DNA of 64,000 bases. Source: Vicingaceae bacterium. Its GTDB lineage: Bacteria > Bacteroidota > Bacteroidia > Flavobacteriales_E > Vicingaceae. Shown piece by piece: positions 59,470-62,444 of this stretch. A model generated the notes under the pieces. The model saw only the letters and a program-made list of their open reading frames with translations, did no database searches and was not told the origin of the DNA. The translations under genes and the position numbers were made by a program. Numbering within the stretch: position 1 is the stretch's first letter; the number at the start of each line of letters is the position of its first letter. The stretch is from positions 124,001 through 188,000 of the forward strand of contig BPHE01000002.1 in the NCBI GenBank assembly GCA_026003395.1, given 5' to 3'.

Positions 59470-59542
59470 CGCGGGGTAGAGCAGTTGGTAGCTCGTCGGG
59501 CTCATAACCCGAAGGTCGCAGGTTCGAGTCCTGCCCCCGCAA
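59470..59542 (+). tRNA. Initiator tRNA-Met (CAT anticodon)
   Basis: A complete cloverleaf can be drawn: acceptor CGCGGGG with CCCCGCA, D-arm GAGC…GCTC, anticodon stem TCGGG…CCCGA with loop CTCATAA, and T-arm GCAGG-TTCGAGT-CCTGC. The initiator marks are present: a C1–A72 mismatch at the acceptor end, three consecutive G–C pairs in the anticodon stem, and A11–U24 in the D-stem. The base after the discriminator A is CTA, not CCA, so CCA must be added after transcription. A Rho-independent terminator and the first GIY-YIG unit follow directly. Confidence 0.95.
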
Positions 59543-59548
59543 CTAGCA

Positions 59549-59577
59549 GGCCGCCAAGGCGGCCTTTTCTTTTTTTC
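59549..59577 (+). terminator. tRNA terminator hairpin, repeated in each unit
   Basis: GGCCGCC (59549–59555) pairs with GGCGGCC (59558–59564) and is followed by TTTTCTTTTTTT. The hairpin recurs after each tRNA 3'-end copy. In two units (before 61468 and 62214) it reads GGCCGC TCATT GCGGCC, a different loop on a conserved stem. Confidence 0.85.
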
Positions 59578-59591
59578 CTCTATTCTACACT

Positions 59592-59870
59592 ATGGAGTTC
59601 TTCTACGTATATATCCTGTTCTCTCATAAACATCATAAGTTCTACATCGGTTACACTGCCGATCTGAAAAAACGCCTCGATGCCCACAACCATCCGCAAA
59701 ACAAAGGTTGGACAGCAAGGTTTCAACCCTGGTCCATCGTTTACATTGAGATTTTCTTCCTCAAAAAACAAGCTATCCAACGTGAACGCTTCCTCAAATC
59801 CGCCAAAGGCAGAAGGTGGATCAAAGAGGTTATCCTCAAAAACCCCGATAGGTTCAAGTTTCAATTTTAA
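59592..59870 (+). CDS. GIY-YIG nuclease, unit 1
   Basis: This 92-residue protein is a single GIY-YIG (URI-type) nuclease domain. The opening strand is FYVYILFSHKHHKFYIGYTA, giving the YVY…FYIG form of the motif, followed by the catalytic Arg in LKKRLDAHN and the catalytic Glu in AIQRERFLKSAK. The domain is complete for the small stand-alone class (COG2827-like), with no extra DNA-binding domain. By family knowledge it cuts DNA using one metal ion. It begins 15 bp after the tRNA terminator and has no clear Shine–Dalgarno or TAnnTTTG box of its own, so expression would need read-through or an unseen signal. Confidence 0.88.
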   Translation: MEFFYVYILFSHKHHKFYIGYTADLKKRLDAHNHPQNKGWTARFQPWSIVYIEIFFLKKQAIQRERFLKSAKGRRWIKEVILKNPDRFKFQF

Positions 59871-59970
59871 ACGGCTCATATCCGCCATGGGCGGACGCAG
59901 GTTCGAGTCCTGCCCCCGCAACTAGCAGGCCGCCAAGGCGGCCTTTTCTTTTTTTCCTCTATTCTACACT

Positions 59971-60249
59971 ATGGAGTTCTTCTACGTATATATCCTGTTC
60001 TCTCATAAACATCATAAGTTCTACATCGGTTACACTGCCGATCTGAAAAAACGCCTCGATGCCCACAACCATCCGCAAAACAAAGGTTGGACAGCAAGGT
60101 TTCAACCCTGGTCCATCGTTTACATTGAGATTTTCTTCCTCAAAAAACAAGCTATCCAACGTGAACGCTTCCTCAAATCCGCCAAAGGCAGAAGGTGGAT
60201 CAAAGAGGTTATCCTCAAAAACCCCGATAGGTTCAAGTTTCAATTTTAA
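59971..60249 (+). CDS. GIY-YIG nuclease, unit 2
   Basis: Encodes the same 92 residues as unit 1, with HKHHKF and RLDAHNHPQN. The catalytic Tyr, Arg and Glu are intact. It is flanked on both sides by tRNA 3'-end copies. Confidence 0.88.
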   Translation: MEFFYVYILFSHKHHKFYIGYTADLKKRLDAHNHPQNKGWTARFQPWSIVYIEIFFLKKQAIQRERFLKSAKGRRWIKEVILKNPDRFKFQF

Positions 60250-60346
60250 ACGGCTCATATCCGCCATGGGCGGACGCAGGTTCGAGTCCTGCCCCCGCAA
60301 CTAACAGGCCGCCAAGGCGGCCTTTTCTTTTCCTCTATTCTACACT

Positions 60347-60625
60347 ATGGAGTTCTTCTACGTCTATATCCTGTTCTCTCATAAACATCAAAAGTTCTAC
60401 ATCGGTTACACTGCCGATCTGAAAAAACGCCTCCATGCCCACAACCATCCGAAAAACAAAGGTTGGACGGCAAGGTTTCAACCCTGGTCTATCGTCTACA
60501 TCGAGATTTTCTTCCTCAAAAAACAAGCTATCCAACGTGAACGCTTCCTCAAATCCGCCAAAGGCAGAAGGTGGATCAAAGAGGTTATCCTCAAAAACCC
60601 CGATAGGTTCAAGTTTCAATTTTAA
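60347..60625 (+). CDS. GIY-YIG nuclease, unit 3
   Basis: A 92-residue copy with HKHQKF and RLHAHNHPKN, so it differs from unit 1 at three residues, none catalytic. The upstream spacer is 3 bp shorter than in unit 1. Its central part carries the synonymous variants TCTATCGTCTACATCGAG shared with unit 7. Confidence 0.88.
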   Translation: MEFFYVYILFSHKHQKFYIGYTADLKKRLHAHNHPKNKGWTARFQPWSIVYIEIFFLKKQAIQRERFLKSAKGRRWIKEVILKNPDRFKFQF

Positions 60626-60725
60626 ACGGCTCATATCCGCCATGGGCGGACGCAGGTTCGAGTCCTGCCCCCGCAACTAGCAGGCCGCCAAGGCGGCCTT
60701 TTCTTTTTTTCCTCTATTCTACACT

Positions 60726-61004
60726 ATGGAGTTCTTCTACGTCTATATCCTGTTCTCTCATAAACATCAAAAGTTCTACATCGGTTACACTGCCGATCTG
60801 AAAAAACGCCTCGATGCCCACAACCATCCGCAAAACAAAGGTTGGACAGCAAGGTTTCAACCCTGGTCCATCGTTTACATTGAGATTTTCTTCCTCAAAA
60901 AACAAGCTATCCAACGTGAACGCTTCCTCAAATCCGCCAAAGGCAGAAGGTGGATCAAAGAGGTTATCCTCAAAAACCCCGATAGGTTCAAGTTTCAATT
61001 TTAA
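60726..61004 (+). CDS. GIY-YIG nuclease, unit 4
   Basis: A 92-residue copy with HKHQKF and RLDAHNHPQN and all motif residues intact. The gene is preceded by the longer spacer with the TTTTCTTTTTTTCC run. Confidence 0.88.
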   Translation: MEFFYVYILFSHKHQKFYIGYTADLKKRLDAHNHPQNKGWTARFQPWSIVYIEIFFLKKQAIQRERFLKSAKGRRWIKEVILKNPDRFKFQF

Positions 61005-61101
61005 ACGGCTCATATCCGCCATGGGCGGACGCAGGTTCGAGTCCTGCCCCCGCAACTAGCAGGCCGCCAAGGCGGCCTTTTCTTTTCCTCTATTCTACAC
61101 T

Positions 61102-61380
61102 ATGGAGTTCTTCTACGTCTATATCCTGTTCTCTCATAAACATCAAAAGTTCTACATCGGTTACACTGCCGATCTGAAAAAACGCCTCGATGCCCACAAC
61201 CATCCGCAAAACAAAGGTTGGACAGCAAGGTTTCAACCCTGGTCCATCGTTTACATTGAGATTTTCTTCCTCAAAAAACAAGCTATCCAACGTGAACGCT
61301 TCCTCAAATCCGCCAAAGGCAGAAGGTGGATCAAAGAGGTTATCCTCAAAAACCCCGATAGGTTCAAGTTTCAATTTTAA
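61102..61380 (+). CDS. GIY-YIG nuclease, unit 5
   Basis: The same protein as unit 4. The downstream junction differs by one base (CCGCCAGGGCGG rather than CCGCCATGGGCGG), so the small inverted repeat there loses a loop base. Confidence 0.88.
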   Translation: MEFFYVYILFSHKHQKFYIGYTADLKKRLDAHNHPQNKGWTARFQPWSIVYIEIFFLKKQAIQRERFLKSAKGRRWIKEVILKNPDRFKFQF

Positions 61381-61467
61381 ACGGCTCATATCCGCCAGGG
61401 CGGACGCAGGTTCGAGTCCTGCCCCCGCAACTAACAGGCCGCTCATTGCGGCCTTTTCTTTTCCTCT

Positions 61468-61746
61468 ATGGAGTTCTTCTACGTCTATATCCTGTTCTCT
61501 CATAAACATCAAAAGTTCTACATCGGTTACACTGCCGATCTGAAAAAACGCCTCGATGCCCACAACCATCCGCAAAACAAAGGTTGGACAGCAAGGTTTC
61601 AACCCTGGTCCATCGTTTACATTGAGATTTTCTTCCTCAAAAAACAAGCTATCCAACGTGAACGCTTCCTCAAATCCGCCAAAGGCAGAAGGTGGATCAA
61701 AGAGGTTATCCTCAAAAACCCCGATAGGTTCAAGTTTCAATTTTAA
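61468..61746 (+). CDS. GIY-YIG nuclease, unit 6
   Basis: The same protein as unit 4. Its upstream spacer lacks the ATTCTACACT segment found before units 1–5, and its terminator has the TCATT loop, so the unit belongs to a second spacer subtype shared with unit 8. Confidence 0.88.
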   Translation: MEFFYVYILFSHKHQKFYIGYTADLKKRLDAHNHPQNKGWTARFQPWSIVYIEIFFLKKQAIQRERFLKSAKGRRWIKEVILKNPDRFKFQF

Positions 61747-61846
61747 ACGGCTCATATCCGCCATGGGCGGACGCAGGTTCGAGTCCTGCCCCCGCAACTA
61801 GCAGGCCGCCAAGGCGGCCTTTTCTTTTTTTCCTCTATTCTACACT

Positions 61847-62125
61847 ATGGAGTTCTTCTACGTATATATCCTGTTCTCTCATAAACATCATAAGTTCTAC
61901 ATCGGTTACACTGCCGATCTGAAAAAACGCCTCGATGCCCACAACCATCCGAAAAACAAAGGTTGGACGGCAAGGTTTCAACCCTGGTCTATCGTCTACA
62001 TCGAGATTTTCTTCCTCAAAAAACAAGCTATCCAACGTGAACGCTTCCTCAAATCCGCCAAAGGCAGAAGGTGGATCAAAGAGGTTATCCTCAAAAACCC
62101 CGATAGGTTCAAGTTTCAATTTTAA
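61847..62125 (+). CDS. GIY-YIG nuclease, unit 7
   Basis: A 92-residue copy with HKHHKF (as in units 1 and 2) and RLDAHNHPKN together with the central variants of unit 3. The mix of markers indicates recombination among units. The downstream inverted repeat reads CCGCCAAGGGCGG. Confidence 0.88.
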   Translation: MEFFYVYILFSHKHHKFYIGYTADLKKRLDAHNHPKNKGWTARFQPWSIVYIEIFFLKKQAIQRERFLKSAKGRRWIKEVILKNPDRFKFQF

Positions 62126-62213
62126 ACGGCTCATATCCGCCAAGGGCGGACGCAGGTTCGAGTCCTGCCCCCGCAACTAACAGGCCGCTCATTGCGGCCT
62201 TTTCTTTTCCTCT

Positions 62214-62444
62214 ATGGAGTTCTTCTACGTCTATATCCTGTTCTCTCATAAACATCAAAAGTTCTACATCGGTTACACTGCCGATCTGAAAAAACGCCTC
62301 CATGCCCACAACCATCCGCAAAACAAAGGTTGGACGGCAAGGTTTCAACCCTGGTCCATCGTTTACATTGAGATTTTCTTCCTCAAAAAACAAGCTATCC
62401 AACGTGAACGCTTCCTCAAATCTGCCTTTGACGGTTGCAGGTAG
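62214..62444 (+). pseudogene. GIY-YIG nuclease, unit 8, 3'-truncated
   Basis: The frame matches the other units through RERFLKSA and then diverges to FDGCR and stops, giving 76 residues. The catalytic Glu is still present but the last helix is lost. After the breakpoint (about 62424) the sequence is unrelated AT-rich DNA, with only GCAGGT at 62438 recalling the tRNA end. This marks the right border of the array. Confidence 0.75.

Follow-up and report, generated by a model that had tools for sequence, protein, structure and literature searches.

A candidate minimal mobile element at tRNA genes of Bacteroidota, built on a single GIY-YIG nuclease gene

Introduction

Known integrative elements use the 3' ends of tRNA genes and restore these, and bacterial tRNA genes, such as cyanobacterial tRNA-fMet, can contain group I introns with homing nucleases. 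The closest known system to the one described here is SegB of phages T4/T6, a GIY-YIG nuclease encoded beside tRNA genes without an intron. SegB cuts tRNA-containing DNA, and homologous recombination then gives tandem tRNA-segB amplification (PMC13096335). Its preferred inheritance has been reviewed (PMC2988022), and a survey of viral proteins only saw no isotype preference (PMC13096335). Here we analyse a 64,000-nucleotide stretch of a Vicingaceae bacterium genome (contig BPHE01000002.1, positions 124,001 to 188,000; hereafter the window), in which an initiator tRNA gene is followed by a tandem array of units, each carrying part of the tRNA and a GIY-YIG nuclease gene.

We consider it fairly likely that these units are a recombinase-free, tRNA-targeted minimal mobile element whose spread relies on nuclease-stimulated recombination and which multiplies in tandem. 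Comparison among genomes demonstrates mobility and target specificity at the level of sequence: insertion is precise and leaves the tRNA intact, nuclease clades are tied to isotypes, presence is patchy, the gene is under selection, and a palindrome in the distal tRNA copy covaries.

Integrative elements (integrative and conjugative elements, prophages and satellites) resemble the units in their insertion at a tRNA 3' end, the restored tRNA and the direct repeat around the insert, all of which are found here. They carry or borrow an integrase, whereas the ~360-bp units encode no integrase or recombinase, the GIY-YIG gene being their only gene (as the earlier note on this DNA had stated), and their second tRNA copy contains a palindrome. 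Group I introns also bring a nuclease gene aimed at a tRNA gene but interrupt the tRNA, whereas the element lies 3' of a tRNA that ARAGORN finds uninterrupted, which rules out such an intron. SegB differs in being a phage gene located between tRNA genes; a pseudo-tRNA, a palindrome, isotype-specific clades and a bacterial chromosomal target are not reported there (PMC13096335). The element would thus work like a free-standing homing nuclease, with cutting as the presumed step, and looks like an integrative element without an integrase. The open literature (subscription papers lay outside the search) holds no description of tRNA-associated GIY-YIG elements in bacterial chromosomes, and the element apparently has not been described before.

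Results

Tandem units behind an initiator tRNA gene

The sole tRNA gene of the window is an initiator tRNA-Met(CAT) on the forward strand, identified as such by its C1:A72 ends and GGG/CCC anticodon stem. The array that overlaps its 3' part (59517-62426; period 379, 7.8 copies, 96% match) is by far the strongest tandem repeat that Tandem Repeats Finder (TRF) detects in the window. The earlier note, made from the letters alone, had counted eight near-identical units. The array is real, but only seven nuclease open reading frames (ORFs) are complete (92 aa each); the eighth (62214-62444) is truncated and has no pseudo-tRNA behind it. Each unit brings together the T-arm and acceptor strand of the tRNA, a hairpin terminator and the 92-codon GIY-YIG ORF. 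Complete units measure 367-379 bp and are separated from one another by 0-11 substitutions, along with small indels; unit 2 repeats unit 1 exactly, and the flanks of the array are unique. No further copy of the nuclease gene occurs outside the array in the 2.54-Mb genome. The tRNA promoter probably also serves the nuclease genes by read-through, because the only consensus promoter of the region precedes the tRNA: a regular-expression scan of 59301-62500 found no second match to the Bacteroidota consensus. The features of the locus are as follows.

59403..59433 (+), Bacteroidota-type promoter of the tRNA gene (TTGACAT...TATATTTG; regular-expression scan)
59470..59543 (+), intact initiator tRNA-Met(CAT), the target gene (ARAGORN)
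59517..59895 (+), unit 1, 379 bp: tRNA 3' part, terminator, nuclease gene, pseudo-tRNA 5' part and palindrome (TRF, alignment)
59545..59572 (+), terminator hairpin GCAGGCCGCCAAGGCGGCC and T run behind the tRNA, with a version in each unit (sequence, unit alignment)
59592..59870 (+), GIY-YIG nuclease gene 1, 92 aa (ORF; PF01541 E=2.4e-16; AlphaFold2 (AF2) predicted local distance difference test (pLDDT) 92)
59871..59922 (+), pseudo-tRNA 1: anticodon-arm remnant 59871-59880, palindrome 59881-59895, T-arm/acceptor copy 59896-59922
59896..60274 (+), unit 2, identical to unit 1; nuclease gene 59971-60249 (for units 2 to 7, ORF and alignment)
60275..60650 (+), unit 3; nuclease gene 60347-60625
60651..61029 (+), unit 4; nuclease gene 60726-61004
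61030..61404 (+), unit 5; nuclease gene 61102-61380
61405..61771 (+), unit 6; nuclease gene 61468-61746
61772..62150 (+), unit 7; nuclease gene 61847-62125
62151..62444 (+), unit 8, truncated: gene 62214-62444 without its C-terminus, no distal pseudo-tRNA
57127..59341 (-), der and era genes, upstream flank marker (ORFs, Pfam); the order der-era-tRNA-fMet also occurs in Flavobacterium
62584..63060 (+), Hsp20 gene, downstream flank (Pfam)

Reverse-strand ORFs (MRGQDSNLRPP...; 59580-62180, -) are spurious readings of the tRNA copies, and spurious proteins of this kind may be common in annotation.

Empty and filled sites in Flavobacterium

The der-era-tRNA-fMet locus was compared across Flavobacterium species at 69 syntenic loci, nine of which have the nuclease gene and five have relics or units lacking the GIY-YIG gene, while 55 were classed as empty. 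The gene is thus present or absent at one locus in related genomes, and the join is precise. The flank behind the 364-bp insert of L208 corresponds to that of the empty L196 from base 1 after the tRNA, over 1136 bp at 94% identity, and base-exact joins were likewise found in the pairs L122/L253, L233/L238, L217/L194, L219/L188 and L154/L218. The precise join that the earlier note had anticipated at empty sites is therefore borne out. Full units insert 350-364 bp. As read from these alignments, insertion at the tRNA 3' part leaves the tRNA intact and places the original terminator and flank behind the pseudo-tRNA; the distal terminator of L187 is the terminator of the empty sites. Its proximal terminator (AACACCACTTG...) recurs in several filled species and, being common to these, is probably borne by the element.

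Presence is patchy, since the nine carriers require nine changes on the flank tree, no fewer than in shuffles. In G154, two separate fMet loci have nuclease genes that share 97.9% identity, whereas identity to the closest of the other genomes compared is 88%. This points to recent spread or conversion inside G154.

Several Flavobacterium loci show other rearrangements at the same place. A large serine recombinase gene ends directly at the tRNA-fMet 3' end (L213, 1-1542; L208, 2243-3442), and in L208 the GIY-YIG unit lies between the tRNA and the recombinase gene; larger integrative elements probably use the same site in this genus. The whole tRNA-fMet gene is tandemly duplicated in many species (L212, L215, L216, L220-L223, L226 and others), mostly at a spacing of ~105-108 bp, and a nuclease unit, if present, then stands behind the last tRNA. 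In L154, ~2.7 kb of other sequence (822-3550), possibly cargo or a later insertion, separates the tRNA-fMet from two nuclease units, the first of which is preceded by a degenerate tRNA tail.

The pseudo-tRNA and its palindrome

The 25-bp tRNA copy that the earlier note saw in each unit does hold the T-arm and acceptor strand, but the distal copy is longer. It is a pseudo-tRNA in which an anticodon-arm remnant (CGGCTCATA) and the palindrome TCCGCC-ATG-GGCGGA precede the T-arm and acceptor strand. The palindrome occurs seven times in the window (0.01 expected) and ten times in the genome, seven of these inside the array. In the fMet family it replaces tRNA nucleotides ~38-47: in most of 63 loci the tRNA copy breaks off at nucleotides 36-38 on the left and resumes at 47-49 on the right. 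The stretch altered in nearly every copy thus covers the anticodon 3' stem and variable loop rather than the T-arm, in or near which the earlier note had put its presumed cut. Compensatory variants of TCCGCC-n-GGCGGA include TCCGTC/GACGGA, TTCGCC/GGCGAA and TCCGTT/AACGGA, among others. There are eight doubly changed cells, and covariation exceeds that of all 500 shuffles (0/500); a looser regular-expression count picked up chance A+T-rich matches and was excluded from this claim.

Beyond fMet, palindromes occur in the anticodon arm for Val-TAC and Ala, at two clade-specific places for Asn, in the T-loop for several Leu, and in some D-arms. The tRNA copies range from ~25 nt to full length, with L100, L065 and L308 being full-length tRNAs that contain a palindrome. 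We hypothesise that the palindrome marks the target stretch of the nuclease.

Six loci (L285, L024, L049, L139, L147 and L225) have two palindromes in different arms of the pseudo-tRNA, as if palindromes had been added later over time. In the window genome and in most of the Flavobacterium inspected, we could reject the idea that the palindrome is a genome-wide repeat of the host. In some genomes TCCGCC-n-GGCGGA palindromes are dispersed outside tRNA contexts (G069, at 68 places; L257; L266; L275), and the one in L266 adjoins what appears by eye to be an RNase P RNA gene. Among tRNA-Ala loci of one genus (L345-L353), the filled gene (L024/L345) has the anticodon arm CTTGCATGGCATGCAAG whereas its relatives have CTTCGCTGGCAGTGAAG; the former is common to filled tRNA-Ala of other families, and co-conversion of the tRNA body is possible.

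Association with tRNA genes of many isotypes

Relatives of the nuclease were found in 48 of the 60 related genomes searched, with further arrays among them; in G010, ten copies with a period of 457 lie at tRNA-Met and four at tRNA-Asn. In roughly half of the loci retrieved, the gene lies directly 3' of a same-strand tRNA, and the gene at a tRNA usually precedes a copy of that tRNA's own 3' end, which clearly outscores shuffles in 75 of 93 cases. Of the 234 GIY-YIG genes whose flanks were long enough, 127 follow a same-strand tRNA at a distance of no more than 300 bp, and none follows one on the opposite strand; downstream tRNAs number 18 and 2, respectively. The queries were seeded with tRNA-adjacent members, and 127/234 is accordingly a biased estimate of the fraction; this seeding does not account for the strand asymmetry. 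These counts uphold the earlier expectation of stand-alone GIY-YIG genes at Bacteroidota tRNA 3' ends, each followed by a copy of that end. More than a dozen isotypes lie beside the gene, among them Met, Asn, Ala, Leu, Val, Pro, Arg, Ser, His, Asp, Phe, Thr and Glu.

A scan with the fMet-clade alignment found 79 loci in named genomes, mostly beside tRNA-Met(CAT). Bacteroidota account for most of these loci, and a few come from Balneolota, Cloacimonadota and KSB1. A phage origin was rejected, as neither the IMG/VR scan nor 50,697 phage records contained a relative. Plasmid matches were only distant relatives, belonging to general GIY-YIG proteins and mostly on rhizobial plasmids. Seven contigs of other genomes (L096, L118, L120, L140, L150, L151 and L155) end within a few hundred bases of the gene, which is what arrays that assemblers fail to resolve would produce.

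The nuclease follows its target tRNA

The 92-aa protein belongs to the GIY-YIG family, and Y7, Y18, G20, R28, H32 and E65 are invariant across 25 sequences, so that the Tyr, Arg and Glu of the family are kept. Its structure is predicted with confidence (pLDDT 92), and the closest solved folds and sequences are those of UPF0213 and Slx1 (1zg2, 1ywl and Slx1 entries). Slx1 is a DNA repair subunit and UPF0213 proteins are uncharacterised single-domain proteins; to our knowledge, neither is tied to tRNA genes. The gene is under purifying selection, with a ratio of nonsynonymous to synonymous rates (dN/dS) of about 0.06-0.29.

Trees of the nuclease follow the target tRNA and not the host family, a trait of homing genes, and clades tend to one isotype. 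On 97 sequences, isotype needs 33 changes compared with 56.9 after shuffling. For the 81 sequences of known host family, isotype needs 28 changes (shuffled mean 50.6, minimum 46), whereas host family needs 55 (shuffled mean 58.5, minimum 55). The tree has few columns and many open forks, and we claim clustering alone; Ser, His and Asp are too few to judge.

Arrays in other genomes and units without the nuclease gene

At least two units, some of them partial, occur at 37 loci and several isotypes with a near-constant period. Copy number, which the earlier note had proposed to compare between strains, differs between species. The Flavobacterium genome G167 has, at its fMet locus L217 (G167:C1:4292700-4299500), eight ~112-bp units without a nuclease gene, directly after the tRNA-fMet and with the element terminator and palindrome pseudo-tRNA; its second fMet locus has three units with the gene. 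The L217 array is a non-autonomous derivative, and a nuclease is not required for tandem expansion as such. Recombination between direct repeats explains array growth well, and the nuclease may stimulate it; the tandem amplification that follows SegB cuts is a demonstrated precedent (PMC13096335).

Discussion

Three parts would make up the proposed element of ~360 bp: a terminator, a single GIY-YIG gene and a pseudo-tRNA that corresponds to the target tRNA in its 3' part. The nuclease would break the target gene where the pseudo-tRNA has its palindrome (in fMet, the anticodon 3' stem and variable loop), and the palindrome would protect the element from its own enzyme. Repair would draw on a donor copy through pseudo-tRNA homology: the left end would pair with the donor's intact tRNA, synthesis would proceed through the nuclease gene, and the T-arm/acceptor copy of the pseudo-tRNA would capture the right end of the break. 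No recombinase would be required for insertion. Units would be gained or lost through recurrent breaks or through ordinary recombination between the direct repeats of 25-60 bp, and tandem arrays would result, including those that lost the nuclease gene.

Several points weigh against this mechanism. Cleavage of the tRNA gene is the step that we infer; the link from palindrome to cut site is a correlation, and the predicted structure comes closest to UPF0213 and to Slx1, which is a structure-specific nuclease, with a weak match to I-TevI. At 92 aa, the protein can hardly accommodate a DNA-binding domain of its own. In Flavobacterium the tRNA of filled sites equals that of empty ones, and the host's escape from self-cutting is not accounted for. 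The distal T-stem of the Ala locus L024 matches neither the local tRNA nor its relatives in the genus, which a simple picture of a displaced native end does not predict.

The serine recombinase gene (Resolvase, Recombinase and Zn-ribbon domains) that abuts tRNA-fMet in L213 and L208, together with the habit of known integrative elements to use and restore tRNA 3' ends, invites the view that the units are satellites moved in trans by a large serine or tyrosine recombinase, with the GIY-YIG gene as cargo and the tRNA copies as attachment (att) sites. We regard this as unlikely: no unit has a recombinase, cargo would not be expected to have clades that predict the isotype, and tRNA copies of ~25 nt to full length with a palindrome are unlike an att core. 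It is also improbable that a nuclease gene came to lie beside a tRNA by chance and was multiplied with the tRNA 3' end by slippage or RecA. Identical neighbouring units and a near-constant period fit unequal recombination, and L217 indicates that arrays can grow or be maintained without the gene in cis. Such duplication accounts for arrays but not for precise insertion at syntenic empty sites, so the joins disfavour it, and it offers no account of more than a dozen isotypes, patchy hosts and isotype-specific clades.

A domesticated host system, in which the nuclease or the pseudo-tRNAs guard the tRNA 3' end from integration or regulate tRNA supply, would sit well with the strong purifying selection, the use of the site as a common integration hot spot and the compensatory changes that keep the palindrome. 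Its patchiness, the many empty sites in close relatives and the relics are better explained by a selfish element, and the L208 unit stands beside an integrated recombinase gene that it did not exclude; we find domestication quite improbable. An assembly artefact is hardly credible. Assemblies are known to suffer from tandem repeats, and the ends of several related contigs lie within a few hundred bases of the gene, but the units differ in sequence, the array flanks are unique, and arrays lie within contigs of 4.67 Mb (L217), 3.69 Mb (L149) and 994 kb (L038).

A tRNA-targeted, recombinase-free element thus remains the reading we prefer, and the interpretation offered in the earlier note is partly supported. 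Its targeted-homing idea holds for the tRNA association, the tRNA copies and the precise joins; it had missed the palindrome of the pseudo-tRNA, the isotype-specific clades and the non-autonomous arrays. We see an even chance that the units represent a new class in bacterial chromosomes, in which nuclease clades are suited to isotypes, a palindrome-bearing pseudo-tRNA both spares the element and gives homology, a 92-residue protein and host repair suffice for precise integration that preserves the tRNA, and non-autonomous derivatives and arrays arise.

If this is true, the element would be among the smallest precise integrative elements, with one protein of ~90 residues and no recombinase. It may explain part of the pull of tRNA 3' ends on insertions in Bacteroidota, and it would explain many spurious protein annotations that result from reading through copies of the tRNA. 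The family provides a natural set of nucleases with different tRNA-gene targets for the study of site specificity in a very small enzyme, and the empty and filled Flavobacterium pairs make the homing question directly testable.

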